A stretch of 40,496 nucleotides of DNA from Bryobacterales bacterium (lineage in GTDB: Bacteria > Acidobacteriota > Terriglobia > Bryobacterales > Bryobacteraceae): the NCBI GenBank assembly GCA_020851655.1, contig JADZCI010000186.1:1-40496 (forward strand). Reading direction: 5' to 3'. Below, piece after piece: positions 74 through 7,922 of this stretch. The notes beneath the pieces are model-generated. The model made no database searches, had not been told where the DNA came from, and saw only the letters and a program-made list of their open reading frames with translations. A program made the translations under genes and the position numbers. The stretch's first letter is position 1. Each line of letters begins with the position of its first letter.

Positions 74-532
74 TCATAGGAATCGGCCACGGCCAAGACG
101 CTGTGTGTCGAGTCGGAAGGATACAAAGTCCTCCGAGTACAGATAGTGGAATGCATGCCCCATGCCGCCGTCCTCGTATTCGCATAGCAAGATCTCCCGG
201 CGATCCGGCAGGGCCACCTTCTCGCACGAGCCTATAATCAGGGCGCGCCGATACCAGATTGGAGTCCAGACGCCGCCGCGCCGGCTCAGCAGCAGCGTGC
301 CGCCGAAACGCTCTGGATGGCCTTCCGTGCTGGAGCCGCCAACTGCTGCGTCGTCGCTGTCAGGCCCAAGAAAATGGCCGAACACGACGCTCTTCGGATG
401 AAACGTACGGTCAACGATATTGGAGAATCCAGGCCCCAGCAGCCGCGCCGTGCACGTATCGAGTCCCTTAACAGCACGAACCGGCGTCTCGCAGAACGCG
501 GCCAGCAACTTGTCTGCTTCGCCTTGCCCTAA
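74..532 (-). pseudogene. Remnant of a hypothetical protein gene, start lost, possible frameshift
   Basis: An open frame runs on the minus strand from just after a stop at 533-535 to a stop at 74-76. There is no ATG or GTG near its beginning; the first usable codon is a TTG at 508. The translation looks like real protein (for example GHFLGPDSDD and ILLCEYEDGGMGHAFHYLYSEDF). Close to its end, another minus-strand frame carries protein-like sequence to the window edge (VLAVADSYEDFCASQTQV), so a one-base frameshift around 100-135 is plausible. I do not recognise the family. The 5' end of the frame meets the hairpin cluster at 522-571, which suggests that the N-terminal part was cut off by an insertion or rearrangement. 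It could instead be a short intact gene starting at TTG 508. Confidence 0.45.
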
Positions 533-571
533 CTAGGCAAGGGCTTCGCCCTTGATATCCCTGCGGGATAT
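522..571. repeat. Left hairpin cluster
   Basis: Two perfect hairpins lie back to back: CAAGGGC-TTC-GCCCTTG at 538-554 and ATATCCC-TGC-GGGATAT at 555-571, each with a 7-bp stem and a 3-base loop. An alternative 7-bp stem, CCTTGCC/GGCAAGG (522-528 with 536-542), overlaps the first, so the RNA or single-stranded DNA could switch between two folds. The cluster lies beyond the 3' end of the four-helix-bundle gene and could act as its transcription terminator, but there is no T-run. It may instead be an element border. Confidence 0.6.
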
Positions 572-604
572 GGAAGCCAGAAGTCAGGAGCCAGAAGCCA
601 GAAT
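572..604. repeat. GAAGCCAGAAG-type short repeat at the 3' end of the four-helix-bundle gene
   Basis: The block is built from near-identical units (GAAGCCAGAA, GTCAGGA, GCCAGAAGCCAGAA). On the minus strand it reads TTCTGGCTTCTGGCTCCTGA, so it encodes the last residues of the four-helix-bundle protein and contains its stop codon. A related copy stands alone at 2735-2771. Confidence 0.65.
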
Positions 605-955
605 GGCGCGCGCGTAGGCGTTCAGCAAACGGCTGGCTTCTTCCAGCGTGCTCATCAACGGCTCGGCTTGTCCATAGCCCAGATCCTGAGTAAGGATCAG
701 GTAGTAACGGCACTCTTCCAGCGAGCCTTCTGCGATATTCAAGAAGCGGGCTTTCTCGGCTTGGCTGCGTTTGCCGAATCCCTCGGCGATGTTGGCCGGA
801 ATGGAAACGGCGGCCCGGCGGAGTTGATGAGACAGCCCGAACTTCTCCCGGTCAGGAAACGATTCCGTCAGCCGATAGACCGCCAGCACGAACTCGTGGG
901 CCTTTTGCCAGACCACCAAATCACGGAAACTCTGCGCGGCTGGTCGTGGAGGCAT
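584..955 (-). CDS. Four-helix-bundle protein (23S rRNA intervening-sequence / Avd-like)
   Basis: The 123-aa product has the hallmarks of the TIGR02436/S23-type four-helix-bundle family: an N-terminal FRDLVVWQKAHEF helix, LTESFPDREKFGLSHQLRRAAVSIPANIAEGF in the middle, and a LEECRYYL segment followed by a last helix with LEEASRLLNAYAR. Members are small pentamer-forming proteins found inside 23S rRNA intervening sequences, beside diversity-generating retroelements (Avd) or alone; their cellular job is poorly known. Here no rRNA gene, reverse transcriptase or template repeat is nearby. The ATG at 955 starts it, 61 bases from the divergent gene at 1017. Its stop codon lies inside a short repeat (572-604). 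Length is normal for the family, so it appears intact. Family call is firm; function is open. Confidence 0.88.
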   Translation of the reverse strand: MPPRPAAQSFRDLVVWQKAHEFVLAVYRLTESFPDREKFGLSHQLRRAAVSIPANIAEGFGKRSQAEKARFLNIAEGSLEECRYYLILTQDLGYGQAEPLMSTLEEASRLLNAYARAILASGS

Positions 956-1016
956 AGGTCAGTAAGGCGTCCACGGGTGTAATCTTCCAGGTATCTCACC
1001 ACGCTGGAGGTTTCCC

Positions 1017-2636
1017 ATGAACGCCTTTTTCGAGCACCACAAGGATAGCATCCGCTTCGGCTACCGGTGTTTCGACCGTCTTCTGCTGAACGGGTTGATC
1101 CAACCGTTTCAGCAGCCGGAACGAGTAGTCGGGTTCTTCAATTTTTACCGGGAGCAGTATCCCGTCAGCCGGGACGTGCTGCGGGACATCGCCGGCCAGT
1201 TCCAACACTGGGTGGTCAACCGCTCCCAGAAGTGGGGCGCGCCCATCCTGGAAGCACCCGAAAGCCGGCGCGATGAATTCGTCAAACCCTATTTCCGGAA
1301 GGCAAAAGCCAATGAGGTGGTCGCGATTGTGAAGGGTCGTGAACCGGCCCGCATCATGATCGCCATCGGCAACAAGAAGGACGACCGCTGGCATCTGCAG
1401 ATCGCGCAGCGGTGGGTGGTGCAGTATAACTTCTACGTGAATGATGAGCGGTGGGGGCCGATGTTCGTGCGCATGTGCCCGTACCTGCCGTTCTCGGCGC
1501 GCCTCTGCCTGAACCAGCACCACTGGTTGGCGCAGCGCATGCGCGACGAAGGTATCGATTTCCAGCAGTGCACCAATGCCTTTCTGCGGTGCGCCAATCC
1601 GGCGCGGCTTCAGGAGCTATCCGATTCGCTGACGCCGCGCGATCTGTTGACCTGTGGCCAGAAGTGGCTCGCCACGTTCACACCGTTCTTCACTGAGCGC
1701 GAACGCAAGCAGGCCGGCTGTCAGCACCGGCTCTTTTTCGCTCAAGTCGAGTACTGCGACAATCTGGTCTTCCGCCGGCGTGCGGCGTTGGACCAAATGG
1801 GGGAACGGCTGCTGGATGCCAATCGAACCATCGGGCAGCCGAACAAGATCACCGTCATCTTCGGCCGCAGGGTTACCAAGCAGTATCGGGGCAAGCTCCA
1901 GACGGTCATTGAAGACTTGGATCTGCCCAATCCGGTTATCCGCAGTCACTACGGCAATGGGTTTCTCAAGCAGTATGTGCGCGATCACGTCCTGCTCCGC
2001 ACGGAGCCGGCCTCCAACAACGTGGCCGATTACGGCGTCAAAAAGGCCGTCGAGAATCTGCCGCAACTGCGCAAAAAGATCTCAGCCGTCATCGACAATT
2101 ACCACAACGTCCAGCAGGACATCCTGGAAACCTTCATCGACCGCGGGCAACTGCGCAAGCTGGCGCAGCCGACCGTAATGCCCAACGGCAAGCGCATCCC
2201 AGGCCTGAAGCTGGATCATCCCCGGCAGCTGGCCCTGATGCACGCGCTGGTGCGCTTCAGCCACATCGCCGCGCAAAGCACTTTCACCACAGCGGAAATT
2301 TACGCTGACACGCTCACCGCTCTGGAGGCTTCACCGAAACAATACACTCTGGCTTCGCTCCGCTACGATCTTTCAAAGCTCAGGGCCAAGGGACTGGTGG
2401 AGAAGGTCCCGAAGTCCCGGCGGTATCGCTTGCTTCCGGAAGGATATTCCATCTGCCTGGTGTTCCTGAAGCTCTTCGAAAGGATCTACGCTCCCCTTAC
2501 TGCCGGGCTGCTCCAACCCTTCGCGGGAGACTCGAAACTACAACAGGCGAAGCGATCGCAACTCGACCGTCTTTATCAGCGTGTCGTTGATGATCTGAAC
2601 AAGCTGATCGTGGCTGTTGGTCTCAAGGCCGCCTGA
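1017..2636 (+). CDS. Uncharacterised 539-aa protein, paralogue of the gene at 2808
   Basis: The ATG at 1017 has a good Shine-Dalgarno (GGAGG, 1006-1010, 6 bases away). I cannot assign a named family. Visible landmarks are an N-terminal CFDRLLLN motif (C18, D20, R21, N25), a region with WGPMFVRMCPY and LNQHHW, QVEYCDNLVF, an RSHYG...KQY...LLRTE segment, and a winged-helix-like region near residues 415-480 (LRYDLSKLRAKGLVEKV, then RRYRLLPEG). A helical tail follows. There is no signal peptide or membrane segment, so it is probably cytoplasmic and may bind DNA. All landmarks recur in the same order in the 545-aa protein encoded 172 bases downstream, so the two are diverged duplicates. Codons look normal for the window and the frame is intact. 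A mobile-element protein is possible but unproven. Confidence 0.85.
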   Translation: MNAFFEHHKDSIRFGYRCFDRLLLNGLIQPFQQPERVVGFFNFYREQYPVSRDVLRDIAGQFQHWVVNRSQKWGAPILEAPESRRDEFVKPYFRKAKANEVVAIVKGREPARIMIAIGNKKDDRWHLQIAQRWVVQYNFYVNDERWGPMFVRMCPYLPFSARLCLNQHHWLAQRMRDEGIDFQQCTNAFLRCANPARLQELSDSLTPRDLLTCGQKWLATFTPFFTERERKQAGCQHRLFFAQVEYCDNLVFRRRAALDQMGERLLDANRTIGQPNKITVIFGRRVTKQYRGKLQTVIEDLDLPNPVIRSHYGNGFLKQYVRDHVLLRTEPASNNVADYGVKKAVENLPQLRKKISAVIDNYHNVQQDILETFIDRGQLRKLAQPTVMPNGKRIPGLKLDHPRQLALMHALVRFSHIAAQSTFTTAEIYADTLTALEASPKQYTLASLRYDLSKLRAKGLVEKVPKSRRYRLLPEGYSICLVFLKLFERIYAPLTAGLLQPFAGDSKLQQAKRSQLDRLYQRVVDDLNKLIVAVGLKAA

Positions 2637-2662
2637 CAAGCTCCGCAACGAGAACAAAATTC

Positions 2663-2733
2663 CCGTTACGCTTCGCATAACGGCCTACGCTTTTTCGCGG
2701 ACTGCGCCGCGAAAAAGTGGCCCCTTCGGGGCC
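2663..2733. repeat. Hairpin cluster between the paralogous genes
   Basis: Three hairpins follow one another: CCGTTA/TAACGG (2663-2668 with 2678-2683, with GC-TTC-GC inside the loop), CTTTTTCGCGG/CCGCGAAAAAG (2690-2700 with 2707-2717, perfect 11-bp stem), and GGCCCC-TTC-GGGGCC (2719-2733). They could end transcription of the upstream gene, although none is followed by a T-run. The TTC loops match those of the clusters at 538-554 and 4467-4477. Confidence 0.65.
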
Positions 2734-2734
2734 G

Positions 2735-2771
2735 CAGAAGTCAGGAGTCGAGGAAGCCAGAAGCTAGAATC
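2735..2771. repeat. Orphan copy of the GAAGCCAGAAG-type repeat
   Basis: GAAGTCAGGAG followed by GGAAGCCAGAAGCTAGAA matches the repeat that forms the 3' tail of the four-helix-bundle gene at 572-604, in the same orientation and likewise next to a hairpin cluster. No four-helix-bundle gene adjoins this copy. It may be a scar of a lost gene or a recombination site. Confidence 0.55.
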
Positions 2772-2807
2772 TGCAGGTGGCGATCGCTCCGTGCTTAACT
2801 GCGAAAC

Positions 2808-4445
2808 ATGGCCGATGGACTCAGCAAGAGGTATGCGGACCTGCTGACCGGCAGCTACGACTGCGTAGACCGTATTGTGTTGAACGCCTATTTCCGCATG
2901 GGGCATCATCCCGGTGGCTTCCGTGTATGGTGGCGTGCCCTGACCGGATCGGAGGATACGCTGGACAACACGCATCTGATGCGCATGGCGGGCCGGTTCA
3001 GCCGTCGCCTGCGCGCCTATGCCCAGGCCAAAGGCATTCCGGTCGTGGATTGTCCGGCTGGCGAGCGCAAGCATGACCTCGCGGAAAAATACCTGGCGAA
3101 GACCAACATCACAGAAGGCTTGTTTCTGATTCTCGTCGGCCGTGCCCAGGCGCCGGTGTGGGAGGTCAGCGGTAAACATCACCTCGAGCGGAAGAAGCCC
3201 CTGCCGTACGTGAACCACTATTCATTCCATATCCTCGATCCCGACTGGGGACACATCACCATCAAAATCAGCGGGCATCCGCCCTTTCCTGCCCAGGTGA
3301 TCCTGAACGGCCACGAGTACGTCGCCTGTCAGGCACGCAAAGCGGGCATCCGCTTTACAAAAGAGGGCAATTGTTTTACTCATATCTCTGACGCCGCAGG
3401 CTTGGCGAAGATCGCAGACACCTTGTCCGGACAACGGACTATAGGGCGGCTGAGCCGGGTCTGCGAGCGTTGGATTTATACCACCTGCCTCTGTTTCGCG
3501 CTCGACCTGGAAGAGCAGAAACAGAGCGGATTTCATTACCAGTACTCCAATTATCAGGTGGAGTATAGCCGGAACCTGATTTTCGAGGTCGGCGGGCAGA
3601 TGGACCAGGTTTTTCAGGCGCTGATTGACCGGAGCCGCGTGCTGCTGGACCTGAAGACGGTGAGGACGATTCTGGGCTACAAGCGCCGCCCGAAGTATCG
3701 CAAGCGGAAAAACAAGTCCGCCGAATGGGAAGTCACGGTCGAGAAACCTACGTATGATCTGACGATCTTCAGGCTGCACTGCGGCAAGCTGACTCTGAAG
3801 ATCTATACCAAAGGCGAGCGCGTGCTTCGCATCGAGACGGTCGTCCACAATACCAAGGAACTCCGGTGCGGTCGTTCACTGCGGTATTTTCCGGAGATCG
3901 TGATCGAGGCGAAAGGAATTCTGGAGCGATTCATGAATGCACTGAGCTGCATCGATCAGTGCTTCATCGCTGATCGGATGCTGGAGCAACTCCCAGCCCC
4001 TTCGCAGGTCGGCAAAACCATGGTCGGTGGCATCGATCTCAACAAGCCACGCATGCGCTGGGTCATCGAGGCGCTGATTGCGCTATCGCCTTCCCCCGGC
4101 GGATTCACAGCGTCCGAACTGGCCAGCCGGGTTCGCGTGCTCAGCCAGCAAAGGGAATCGGAGTATGGTCCACGCCGGGCCGCTTATGACCTGAAGAAAC
4201 TCCGGGGCAAGAAGGTGATCCGGCGAATCGGGCCAACGCGCCGATATGAATCGATACCGAAGGGTCTGAGAGCGATGACGGCGCTGATGGTGCTGAGAAA
4301 CAAGGCCATCCAACCCTTGCTGGCCGCCGCGCAGGAACTGCGCCCGTCGCGCGGCGCGCAGAATCCTTCAGCCATCGATCGGCATTACGACACGCTTCGC
4401 GCCGCGATGCAAGGTGTGTTTCACGAACTGGGTCTGGCCGCGTGA
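2808..4445 (+). CDS. Uncharacterised 545-aa protein, paralogue of the gene at 1017
   Basis: The ATG at 2808 gives a 545-aa product but has no clear Shine-Dalgarno, so the start is less sure than in its partner. No named family is recognised. It aligns by eye with the 539-aa protein along its whole length: CVDRIVLN (C19, D21, R22, N26), WGHITIKISGHPPF and LNGHEY, QVEYSRNLIF, RLHCG, IYTKG...LRIE, and a C-terminal winged-helix-like part near residues 430-490 (YDLKKLRGKKVIRRI, then RRYESIPKG). A lysine/arginine-rich patch (YKRRPKYRKRKNK) could touch nucleic acid. The IYTKG...LRIE strand pair loosely recalls Y-x-K...R-x-E segments of phage and plasmid replication initiators, a weak hint only. No signal or membrane segments are seen. 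Confidence 0.85.
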   Translation: MADGLSKRYADLLTGSYDCVDRIVLNAYFRMGHHPGGFRVWWRALTGSEDTLDNTHLMRMAGRFSRRLRAYAQAKGIPVVDCPAGERKHDLAEKYLAKTNITEGLFLILVGRAQAPVWEVSGKHHLERKKPLPYVNHYSFHILDPDWGHITIKISGHPPFPAQVILNGHEYVACQARKAGIRFTKEGNCFTHISDAAGLAKIADTLSGQRTIGRLSRVCERWIYTTCLCFALDLEEQKQSGFHYQYSNYQVEYSRNLIFEVGGQMDQVFQALIDRSRVLLDLKTVRTILGYKRRPKYRKRKNKSAEWEVTVEKPTYDLTIFRLHCGKLTLKIYTKGERVLRIETVVHNTKELRCGRSLRYFPEIVIEAKGILERFMNALSCIDQCFIADRMLEQLPAPSQVGKTMVGGIDLNKPRMRWVIEALIALSPSPGGFTASELASRVRVLSQQRESEYGPRRAAYDLKKLRGKKVIRRIGPTRRYESIPKGLRAMTALMVLRNKAIQPLLAAAQELRPSRGAQNPSAIDRHYDTLRAAMQGVFHELGLAA

Positions 4446-4450
4446 AACAT

Positions 4451-4477
4451 CGACAATTATTTTGTCGGGCTTCGCCC
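4451..4477. repeat. Right hairpin cluster
   Basis: CGACAA/TTGTCG (4451-4456 with 4462-4467) is joined to GGGC-TTC-GCCC (4467-4477), starting six bases after the stop of the 545-aa gene. It may terminate that transcript. The palindrome GGGCTTCGCCC is identical to bases 541-551. Confidence 0.6.
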
Positions 4478-4529
4478 CTAAGCGCCTAACGTTTTCCACC
4501 GGTTCTGACGAAGGGTGTGTGGAGAAGCC

Positions 4530-4964: not shown

Positions 4965-5067
4965 TGCCTGCCTGTTCCCTCCGCCCCGGCGCGCTGTCCT
5001 AATTGAGCAGCAGGACGGAAATCCTTCAGCGCTGAAGCCGTCTGTCGAGGAAAATAGAGAAACTTTG

Positions 5068-5985
5068 ATGACGCGCGCTCGCAGGCTGGGCCCACTTGTC
5101 TTTTGGCTGGCGGCGGCCACGGCAACAGGCGCTCCAACCTACGTGGGAAGCGCCACTTGCCGCCGCTGCCACCCCGATGTGGTGATGAGCTTCAGCCGCA
5201 ACCCGCACTATAAGGCCCAGGTGGAGCACCCTGACGCCAGAGATCAGGGCGGCTGCGAGTCCTGTCATGGCCCAGCGAGCGAACACGTCGCCGCCGGCGG
5301 CGGAAAGTCGAACCTGGCCGCCTTCTCGGTCATGCCGTCCCGGCAGGTCCTGGACGCCTGCCTCCGCTGTCACAGTAACTCGCTGGGGCGCGCCAGCGTC
5401 CGCGGCTCGTCTCACTCCCTGGCGCAGATCGCCTGCAACCAATGCCATTCGGTTCATAAGTCTCCTGTCCAGAAGTTTCTTCTGGCCAGGGAGCAGCGCG
5501 ACCTTTGTTACGGCTGCCACCAGACCGTCAAGGCGCAGTTCTCCATGCCGTTCAAGCATCGTGTCAACGAAGGATTCATGAGTTGCGCCGATTGCCACAA
5601 CCCTCACGGCGCGGCGGCGCCCGTGTGGCGCATGGGCGCAAGACCCCGCATGACCGGTGTTGCGTTACAAAACGAGGAGCCATGCCTGAAGTGCCACACC
5701 GACAAACGCGGGCCCTTCGCCTTCGAGCATTCGGGAGTCCGAGTGGATGGATGCGAGACGTGCCATAGTCCTCATGGATCCGCCCATCCGCGCCTGCTCC
5801 GCCGCCCGGCCGTCTTCACGCTCTGCCTGGAGTGCCACAGCGGCGCGGGCAATTTCGGCAGGCAGGGCGACGGCATCAACATGACATCCGTCACGCACAG
5901 CATGACGGATCCGAAGTTTCAGAACTGTACGGCCTGTCACACGCGGATCCACGGGTCGAACGCCGACGAGAGGTTCCTGCGGTGA
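5068..5985 (+). CDS. Decaheme c-type cytochrome, MtrA/DmsE-like
   Basis: A signal peptide (hydrophobic LVFWLAAATATGA) is followed by exactly ten CxxCH heme-binding motifs: CRRCH, CESCH, CLRCH, CNQCH, CYGCH, CADCH, CLKCH, CETCH, CLECH and CTACH. The 305 residues and the ten evenly spread hemes match the DmsE/MtrA family, periplasmic wires that plug into an outer-membrane barrel and pass electrons across the outer membrane. The ATG at 5068 is preferred over the TTG just before it. The last bases overlap the start of the next gene (GTGA), so the cytochrome and porin are translated together. No outer-surface cytochrome (MtrC/OmcA type) is adjacent. Direction of electron flow cannot be read from sequence. 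Confidence 0.93.
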   Translation: MTRARRLGPLVFWLAAATATGAPTYVGSATCRRCHPDVVMSFSRNPHYKAQVEHPDARDQGGCESCHGPASEHVAAGGGKSNLAAFSVMPSRQVLDACLRCHSNSLGRASVRGSSHSLAQIACNQCHSVHKSPVQKFLLAREQRDLCYGCHQTVKAQFSMPFKHRVNEGFMSCADCHNPHGAAAPVWRMGARPRMTGVALQNEEPCLKCHTDKRGPFAFEHSGVRVDGCETCHSPHGSAHPRLLRRPAVFTLCLECHSGAGNFGRQGDGINMTSVTHSMTDPKFQNCTACHTRIHGSNADERFLR

Positions 5986-7922
5986 GGCGCGCGGTCGTCT
6001 GGCTCGCCCTGGCTTGTCCCCTTTGGGCGCAGCCGGCCGTGGCGCCGTCGGACGAACTTGTCGGGCGGCGCAGCGGGGAGCAATGGGCGGGATACCGGAT
6101 TATCCAGTCCTGGGAACTCGGATACCGCCTCTCGTCCACCGGCGGAAACGAGGGTAAGTATCGCAGCGACGTGAATTATGGCAACGGGATCCGGCTTCTG
6201 TCCGGGCGTTTCGCCATGACCTCCAACGACGGACACGGCCGCTGGTTTGACGAGCTGCTGCTGAACACGCAAGGGCTGGGGAACGATCCCTACGAAGCCG
6301 CGAACTTCCGGATCCAGAAGAACAAGTGGTATCGCTATGATGGGCTCTGGCGGCGGAACGACTATTTCAACCCGGCGCTTCCGATCGCCGGCGGCCAGCA
6401 TCTGGAGGACACCGTCCGGCGCCTGCAGGATCACGACTTCACCCTGTTTCCACAATCCAGTGTGAAGTTCTTCACCGGCTTCAGCCGGAACACGCAAACC
6501 GGACCCGGGCTGTCGACTGTGGCGCTGGCGGGTTCGACCGGAGCCGTCACGCCGTTGATGCTGGATATACGCCGGTCGCAGAATGAATTCCGCTACGGCA
6601 ACGAATTCCGCGTGGCCTCGATACGCATCAACTGGATGGGGGCGCGGGAATGGTTTCGCGAGGAATTGCCGGCGCGGTCCTCGCAACCCGCCGGAACACA
6701 GGTCAGCCGCTCGCAGGTCTACGAGGGGACCACTCCCTCATGGCGCTTGAACTTCTTCCGGGAACAGGGTGAGAAGTGGGCGATCAACGGCCGCGGCACT
6801 TATTCCCGGGGCTTGCGGAATTACGACACCCAGGAAACGGCCACCGGAGTCCCGGCCGCCTCGCCGTCACGCGCCATTCAAACCGTTGTCGGCGGAGTTG
6901 CGCGCCGGCCCGTCCTGACGGCCAACGTGACGCTGAGCCTGTTCCCCACATCGCGGCTCACGGTCACAAATCAAACCGCCTACCACGACGTGCGCATGTA
7001 CGGCGATTCGTTGTACAGCCAGTTGGAGAATTCCACGCTCCTGCAGAGCCTCATCTACTTCCAGACACTTGGCATCCGCACACTGGCCAACGCCGCCACG
7101 GTGGATTTTGTGGTGAGGCGGGGTTTGTCTCTCCGCGGTGGCTATCAGTATTCGGAGCGCCGCATACAATCGGTCGAAAGAAACACCGAGAACGTTGAAG
7201 GCGGCTTTACGGATTTGAAAACCGGAGATCAAACCAACCGGCTTCACTCCGGCATGGCGGGACTTCGCTTGCAGCCGGTCAAAGGGGTAACGATCCTGCT
7301 CGACGGGGAAATCGGCCGGCAGGACCATCCGTTTACGCCCATCAGCGACAAGAACTACCACGGCTTGAGCGCCCGGGCGCAATGGCGCGGGCGGAGCTTC
7401 ACCTTAGGCGCGGTGGCTCAGGCCAACTACAATTTCAATTCCATTTCGCTGTCGCACCACAGCAGCCGGACGCGCCGCTACGCGGTGGACGCCTCGTGGT
7501 CGCCGCGCTCGTCCGTCTCCATCGAGGCGAGCTACGCCAGGCTGCATCTGGACACGGCTACCGGTCTGGCGTACTTTGTTTCGCTCCGTCCCGTCATCGG
7601 CCAATCGCTGTTCTTCAGCAACGTCCACTCGGCTTACGCCGGAGTCCGGCTGTCCATGATCAAGCGGGCGGATCTGTACTTCGGCTACACCGGAACCTTT
7701 GATACGGGCGACGGCGGAACGGCGCCCGGTTCGGACGCGTTTCAACAGGTGCAAACCTACCCGATGAGTTACCAATCACCCCTGGCGAGGGTCTCGGTCC
7801 TGATCACCAATAAGCTGCGTTGGAATGCCGGCTACCAATATTACGGTTACCACGAAGACCTGTACTCGTATCAGAACTACCGCGCACACACCGGATATAC
7901 AAGCCTTCTGTTCACCTTCTAA
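5982..7922 (+). CDS. Outer-membrane beta-barrel of the MtrB/PioB type
   Basis: A GTG at 5982 overlaps the cytochrome stop codon by four bases and starts a 646-aa protein with a signal peptide (VVWLALACPLWAQ). The body is rich in alternating aromatic and polar residues typical of transmembrane beta strands, with many short turns, and it ends in LLFTF, the C-terminal phenylalanine signature used for insertion by the BAM machinery. Size and pairing with a decaheme cytochrome fit the MtrB/PioB family, which forms the sheath around the MtrA-like heme wire. Longer open frame exists upstream to 5832, but that part overlaps the cytochrome gene and lacks a signal peptide in the right place. Confidence in the pair is high; in the exact subfamily, moderate. 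Confidence 0.85.
   Translation: MRRAVVWLALACPLWAQPAVAPSDELVGRRSGEQWAGYRIIQSWELGYRLSSTGGNEGKYRSDVNYGNGIRLLSGRFAMTSNDGHGRWFDELLLNTQGLGNDPYEAANFRIQKNKWYRYDGLWRRNDYFNPALPIAGGQHLEDTVRRLQDHDFTLFPQSSVKFFTGFSRNTQTGPGLSTVALAGSTGAVTPLMLDIRRSQNEFRYGNEFRVASIRINWMGAREWFREELPARSSQPAGTQVSRSQVYEGTTPSWRLNFFREQGEKWAINGRGTYSRGLRNYDTQETATGVPAASPSRAIQTVVGGVARRPVLTANVTLSLFPTSRLTVTNQTAYHDVRMYGDSLYSQLENSTLLQSLIYFQTLGIRTLANAATVDFVVRRGLSLRGGYQYSERRIQSVERNTENVEGGFTDLKTGDQTNRLHSGMAGLRLQPVKGVTILLDGEIGRQDHPFTPISDKNYHGLSARAQWRGRSFTLGAVAQANYNFNSISLSHHSSRTRRYAVDASWSPRSSVSIEASYARLHLDTATGLAYFVSLRPVIGQSLFFSNVHSAYAGVRLSMIKRADLYFGYTGTFDTGDGGTAPGSDAFQQVQTYPMSYQSPLARVSVLITNKLRWNAGYQYYGYHEDLYSYQNYRAHTGYTSLLFTF

Follow-up and report, generated by a model that had tools for sequence, protein, structure and literature searches.

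The window analysed here (40,496 nucleotides of contig JADZCI010000186.1, Bryobacterales bacterium assembly GCA_020851655.1) carries a mobile element at positions 529-4489, in which left-end paired hairpins, a gene for a four-helix 23S rRNA-intervening-sequence protein (23S-IVP), the gene for protein A, a middle set of hairpins, the gene for protein B and right-end hairpins follow one another (Table 1). We consider it very likely that the element belongs to a transposon family not described before, whose Rep_trans-like tyrosine transposase works in the manner of IS200/IS605 or IS91 though without the HUH fold; it probably stands for a hitherto undescribed class that moves as single-stranded DNA. 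Its mobility and ends have been worked out by comparing copies, and the catalysis is predicted from fold and conserved residues.

Movement is shown by a copy in another Bryobacterales metagenome-assembled genome (contig JAIXKK010000115, L003; L numbers denote loci and G numbers genomes), which is 99.95% identical to window positions 529-4489, with 2 mismatches in 3961 bp; the identity stops exactly at 529 and 4489, and the flanks are unrelated. Since near-identity over exactly this interval is combined with unrelated flanks, comparison of the copies shows that a discrete unit some 4 kb long changes genomic sites, in agreement with the initial annotation, which had considered an element that mobilises DNA and lies at varying places in the genome. 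The assembly to which the window belongs has a further left end, at the end of a different contig (G000, C236:6382; L093), with the left flank of the L003 copy (G065); this is either a second host copy or a mis-binned contig, and both readings still give two insertion sites for nearly identical elements. A more distant copy of the 529-4489 unit, 70% identical over that stretch, is present at L008. The reading of A and B as an obligatory pair is not supported: A-only units, corresponding to 529 to about 2683, are found at L004, L005, L006, L007 and L010, B-type genes without A at L035, L036, L045 and L046, and both kinds of single-gene element are common. The two reading frames had been placed as we find them, though they make up only part of the unit, and the four-helix gene and the exact ends had been overlooked.

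Homologues of A have been detected in 63 of the 237 genomes of the window's taxonomic family, often several per genome, and many of them are decayed, with in-frame stops or as fragments. Matches to B were seen in 19 of 297 genomes sampled from the phylum. Members of the family also occur on plasmids of Rhodococcus, Mycobacterium, Mycolicibacterium, Paraburkholderia and Caballeronia. The Paraburkholderia plasmid member (NZ_CP014580.1, 252820-254295) is annotated as an ArsR family transcriptional regulator, a label that its winged helix probably explains.

The hairpins that had been noticed around the genes are real: the left end of A folds as DNA at -11.3 kcal/mol (z -3.9 against shuffled sequences) and the left end of B at -20.2 kcal/mol (z -5.1), and the right-end folds of the window, compared with shuffles in the same way, are weaker than these, while other copies have stronger ones. 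The left-end consensus, C[TC]AA-CTAG[CG]CAAGGGCTTCGCCCTTGATATCCC-NNN-GGGATA, forms two adjacent hairpins, and the right-end consensus consists of ACGAGAACAAAATTCTCGT, a second GC-rich palindrome, TAACGG, 0-6 nucleotides and CTAA; the left and right ends are unlike each other and have no terminal inverted repeats. A search with the left-end pattern gave matches in 10 of 19 genomes, with none for the reversed control. The 10.7-Mb genome G163 contains 15 left-end copies (loci L087, L094, L097, L099-L107), most of them short non-autonomous derivatives, and copies of about 150-180 bp consisting of the two ends only are found in three genomes (L076, L089, L094, L097, L101, L103, L107), together with further copies that have internal deletions. 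These non-autonomous derivatives show that the ends are the part of the element that is recognised. Just inside the left ends of both modules, at 575-605 and 2735-2770, lie degenerate AGTCAGGAG/AGCCAGAAG repeats, which are retained also in the copies of about 150 bp.

The insertion target is CTAA. The sequence CTA[AG] follows the right-end hairpins within 10 nucleotides in 15 of the 16 elements with a recognisable right end, against a background of 1.1% (p = 5e-29), although some of these elements share ancestry and do not count as 16 independent cases; C[T/C]AA is the preferred tetranucleotide before the left end. When the flanks of the L005 element are joined with a single CTA, a broken reading frame is restored (QKSAQPTKP*) that agrees in frame and length with the uninterrupted loci L117, L118, L136 and L137 (QKSALPTKP*, QKSAQPDKP*, QKSAQPNNA* and QKPTQPNNA*); if the right-hand CTAA is removed as well, the join is frameshifted. 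The second insertion with an uninterrupted homologous site, L089, agrees in length with locus L119. These comparisons suggest that the element enters CT/AA and leaves CT/AG...CT/AA, an outcome to which a 3-bp CTA duplication would look identical. A 4-bp target duplication was rejected, the left CCAA differing from the right CTAA in L005 and L006, as was insertion after the left CTAA on the top strand, in the manner of IS200, for which the predicted empty site is 4 nucleotides too short and frameshifted. For the insertion in the window itself, a search for an empty site gave none. In other subfamilies, including the Rhodococcus copies, CTA can be seen by eye on both sides. At L092 (1461-1500), an element end is directly preceded by an apparent 5' tRNA half-gene (..GTAGCTCAGTTGGTAGAGCATCTGATTTGTAATCAAA), as if the element had inserted close to the anticodon.

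The junction between A and B in the window reads ...AACGGCCT / ACGCTTTTTCG..., which is what would be left if a B-type element had inserted into the CTAA that closes an A-type element on the right; the tandem looks like the product of such an event, now moving as one unit. The hairpins that precede B at L036 and L046 resemble those at the left end of B in the window.

Proteins A and B align from end to end by BLASTP, with 24% identity, 44% positives and an E value of 7e-46, bearing out the initial description of a full-length paralogous tandem pair. The motifs pointed out there (CxDR, WG..PF, LNxH, QVEY, KxY..LRxE and YDLxKLR) are kept across 34 homologues, and both proteins are under purifying selection, the ratio of nonsynonymous to synonymous substitution rates (dN/dS) being about 0.05-0.13 for A, in pairs with unsaturated dS, and 0.07 for B. 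The pair had also been called an unrecognised family, and searches of Pfam, NCBIfam and PHROGs gave no significant match to either protein; when these and PADLOC were applied to A, B and the 34 homologues, only weak matches of the winged helix were obtained, to PF25213 and MarR-like families. No match was found in a sequence search of the PDB, and none of the 34 homologues matches DDE, recombinase or HUH families. An HUH enzyme, prompted by the sequence LNQHHW in the protein, was discarded as a candidate, the column reading LNGHEW in most homologues.

An AlphaFold2 model of A (m956f1c8bd8ad; predicted local distance difference test, pLDDT, 84) has a domain resembling TATA-binding protein (TBP) at residues 1-371, followed at about 398-500 by a C-terminal winged helix (VIA-align), and it matches TBPs with Z 8-9. 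The model of the B catalytic domain (mf99cdf19783b; pLDDT 87.5, predicted template modelling score 0.88) likewise matches TBPs at Z 8-9 and then 4cij (7.3), 4cwe (7.1) and 4cwc (6.8), which are all three of the listed Rep_trans structures, over 178-194 residues (for 4cij, 194 residues at 5.0 Å). Foldseek gave no significant match against the PDB, and against viral models it returned TBPs (E 6e-4). TBP and Rep_trans proteins share a common sheet topology (PMC4797284).

The conserved residues of the family occur in the order C-x-D20-R, Q243-x-E245, K318-x-Y320-x-[KR]322 and L-R328-x-E330 (A numbering). Among the homologues that reach each column, D20 is conserved in 28 of 28, E245 in 33 of 34 (D in the other), K318 in 31 of 32, Y320 in 32 of 32, K/R322 in 31 of 32, and R328 and E330 each in 32 of 32; in the model of A, the tyrosine motif lies on a strand (315-322) adjoining that of LRxE (326-333). 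B has a complete active-site series as well (E252, K331-x-Y333, R341-x-E343). This is the order of the Rep_trans motifs N', I, III and IV (PMC4797284; PMC5714925), though the three carboxylates D20, E245 and E330 match Rep_trans by order along the chain only. In RepD/RepDE the corresponding elements are D46, R140-x-D142, R189-x-Y191-x-K193 and R212-x-E214, where the tyrosine is the nucleophile and D46, D142 and E214 are the metal ligands (PMC4797284); the sequences of pC221 RepD at the four motifs are SFDAMT, RLDLAF, IRIYNKK and WRVE. Rep_trans/MOBT enzymes nick at CT'AA within a hairpin loop (PMC9371924), and in both pT181 and pC221 we see this CTAA directly in the loop, in AACCGGCTA-CTCTAA-TAGCCGGTT. 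Since the target of the element was found from the DNA alone, its agreement with the nic site is independent evidence. A and B are accordingly both predicted to be Rep_trans-like tyrosine transposases, each with a TBP-like catalytic domain and a winged helix at the C-terminus, with no claim that they belong to PF02486; the weak echo of replication initiators that had first been noticed corresponds to the near-invariant KxYxK...LRxE on a TBP/Rep_trans-like fold.

Several points weigh against this assignment and the proposed insertion. TBPs, not Rep_trans proteins, are the best structural matches, the Rep_trans Z of about 7 being middling. The PF02486 profile has no match among the 34 members, nor was one found in a search of 150 relatives and 4 plasmids, and when the alignment of catalytic domains was compared by hhalign with the single sequence of pC221 RepD, the probability was 0.1%. 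The CTAA of the element adjoins hairpins, whereas that of the plasmids lies within a hairpin loop. The empty sites are homologues of roughly 80-90% identity, not isogenic strains, and a 3-bp CTA duplication cannot be told from no duplication.

In the mechanism that we propose, the winged helix and the hairpins would bring the enzyme to the element ends, where the conserved tyrosine would cut one strand, at CT/AG on the left and CT/AA on the right, and remain attached to the 5' end; 5'-AG...CT-3', as a single strand or as the circle formed from it, would then be joined into a new CT/AA site, so that no bases would be duplicated. In the window, an A-type element would have taken up a B-type element at its right-hand CTAA, and both would now travel together. 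The system would be a single-strand, hairpin-ended kind of transposon, and its transposase a new class if the catalytic assignment is proved. It is likely, with somewhat less assurance than for the family itself, that we are dealing with such a class: a TBP-fold tyrosine nuclease of Rep_trans type, present across Acidobacteriota, Actinomycetota and Pseudomonadota, that carries small elements with hairpin ends from one CTAA site to another in single-stranded form, mobilises its own derivatives of about 150 bp, and provides a third route of single-strand transposition beside HUH Y1 and Y2. No description of such a transposon was found in the open-access library searched, subscription papers and preprints being outside its scope.

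Of the known systems, the Rep_trans (PF02486) rolling-circle initiators and the MOBT relaxases (pT181/pC221 Rep, RepSTK1, ICEBs1 NicK and RelSt3) share with A and B the TBP-like catalytic sheet and the motifs D, RxD/QxE, R/KxYxK and W/LRxE, and have a CTAA site associated with a hairpin, in its loop in their case and beside the hairpins in ours. A and B differ from them in having no detectable sequence similarity, a length of about 540 amino acids and a C-terminal winged helix, and in being located in a small two-ended transposon, not in a plasmid, phage or integrative and conjugative element (ICE). Rep-Arvir (DUF7845), the initiator of archaeal viruses and plasmids, came to light in 2026 by TBP matches of this kind, has a TBP-like N-terminal domain and a winged helix, as does the model of A, and recognises a hairpin in cis; it differs in belonging to archaeal replicons and in having KHYYM around its tyrosine (PMC13107129), and DUF7845 (PF25227) is not among the Pfam families listed for the 34 members. 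IS200/IS605 and REP/RAYT elements resemble ours in their subterminal hairpins at both ends, short fixed target, lack of a clear duplication and end-only derivatives spreading in trans, but their transposase is a small HUH Y1 enzyme of unrelated fold, and no TnpB is present here. IS91/ISCR elements and Helitrons likewise combine a replication-initiator-like transposase with a fixed short target and no apparent duplication, but use HUH Y2 enzymes, other targets and other ends. Neither A, B nor the 34 homologues match a Y1 or Y2 transposase family, and the modelled fold of A and B is TBP-like.

Rep_trans and Rep-Arvir proteins of this fold start plasmid or virus replication at hairpin origins (PMC4797284, PMC13107129), and A and B might accordingly be the initiators of integrated, plasmid-like rolling-circle replicons for which integration is secondary. 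This is distinctly unlikely given the many end-only copies of about 150 bp, the fixed CTAA target and an element without an integrase; nor was any family member matched in the phage records searched. No more likely is a role of A and B as cargo, either regulators that bind DNA or proteins that bind the hairpins, with the ends moved by a transposase supplied elsewhere. The small copies do show that movement can come in trans, the winged helix gives the only family matches, weak ones, and the plasmid homologue carries its ArsR label; yet A-only elements hold just A and the four-helix gene, other subfamilies in several phyla have this protein alone between CTA-bounded ends, and a regulator would not be expected to have a near-invariant Y/K/R/E/D series on a fold of nuclease type.

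The CTA common to the left and right junctions would fit equally well a 3-bp duplication or a crossover, as made by a DDE-type or tyrosine-recombinase transposon. With a TBP-like fold, mutually unlike ends that lack terminal inverted repeats, and homologues without a match to any DDE, recombinase or HUH family, such a transposon is highly improbable, and the Rep_trans-like transposon remains the preferred reading.

Were it true, a TBP-fold nuclease running a transposon would break the division set out in a 2017 review, in which transposases are found among the HUH enzymes and those of Rep_trans type serve plasmids, phages and ICEs (PMC5714925). It would also give a function to widespread proteins now called hypothetical or ArsR regulators, and account for one type of hairpin repeat seen in soil bacteria. 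With its fixed CTAA target and small ends, the system is directly testable.

The four-helix protein clearly belongs to PF05635 (E 1.2e-38 over 102 residues). Its gene is intact in all 7 of the A-type elements examined, with dN/dS of 0.06-0.15 at unsaturated dS, and it is a selected accessory. The nearest relative of the window's A is at L004 (86%) and that of its four-helix protein at L008 (84%); these different affinities indicate that the element modules recombine to give mosaics. In the 23S rRNA IVP/S23 elements the same family is found, but here the gene lies outside rRNA and is joined to a large nuclease-like gene.

Table 1. Features of the mobile element in the window
Feature	Positions	Strand	Remarks
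Whole mobile element (A+B composite)	529-4489		predicted strand cuts CT/AG 534/535 and CT/AA 4487/4488
Element left end	529-571		target-derived C[TC]AA, CTAG, hairpins 538-554 and 555-571; in all A-type copies
23S rRNA-intervening-sequence protein (four-helix bundle)	584-955	-	123 aa; accessory of A-type elements
Protein A reading frame	1017-2636	+	539 aa
Right end of A module	2646-2687		two hairpins, then CTA; right terminus of A-only elements
Left end of B module	2685-2733		CTA, then two strong hairpins
Protein B reading frame	2808-4445	+	545 aa; paralogue of A
Right end of B module and whole element	4451-4489		hairpins, then AAGCGCCTAA

Beyond the element, at 5065-7922 of the window, lie an open reading frame for a multihaem c-type cytochrome with about ten CxxCH motifs and then one of 696 amino acids resembling an outer-membrane barrel; these are possibly an extracellular electron-transfer pair.

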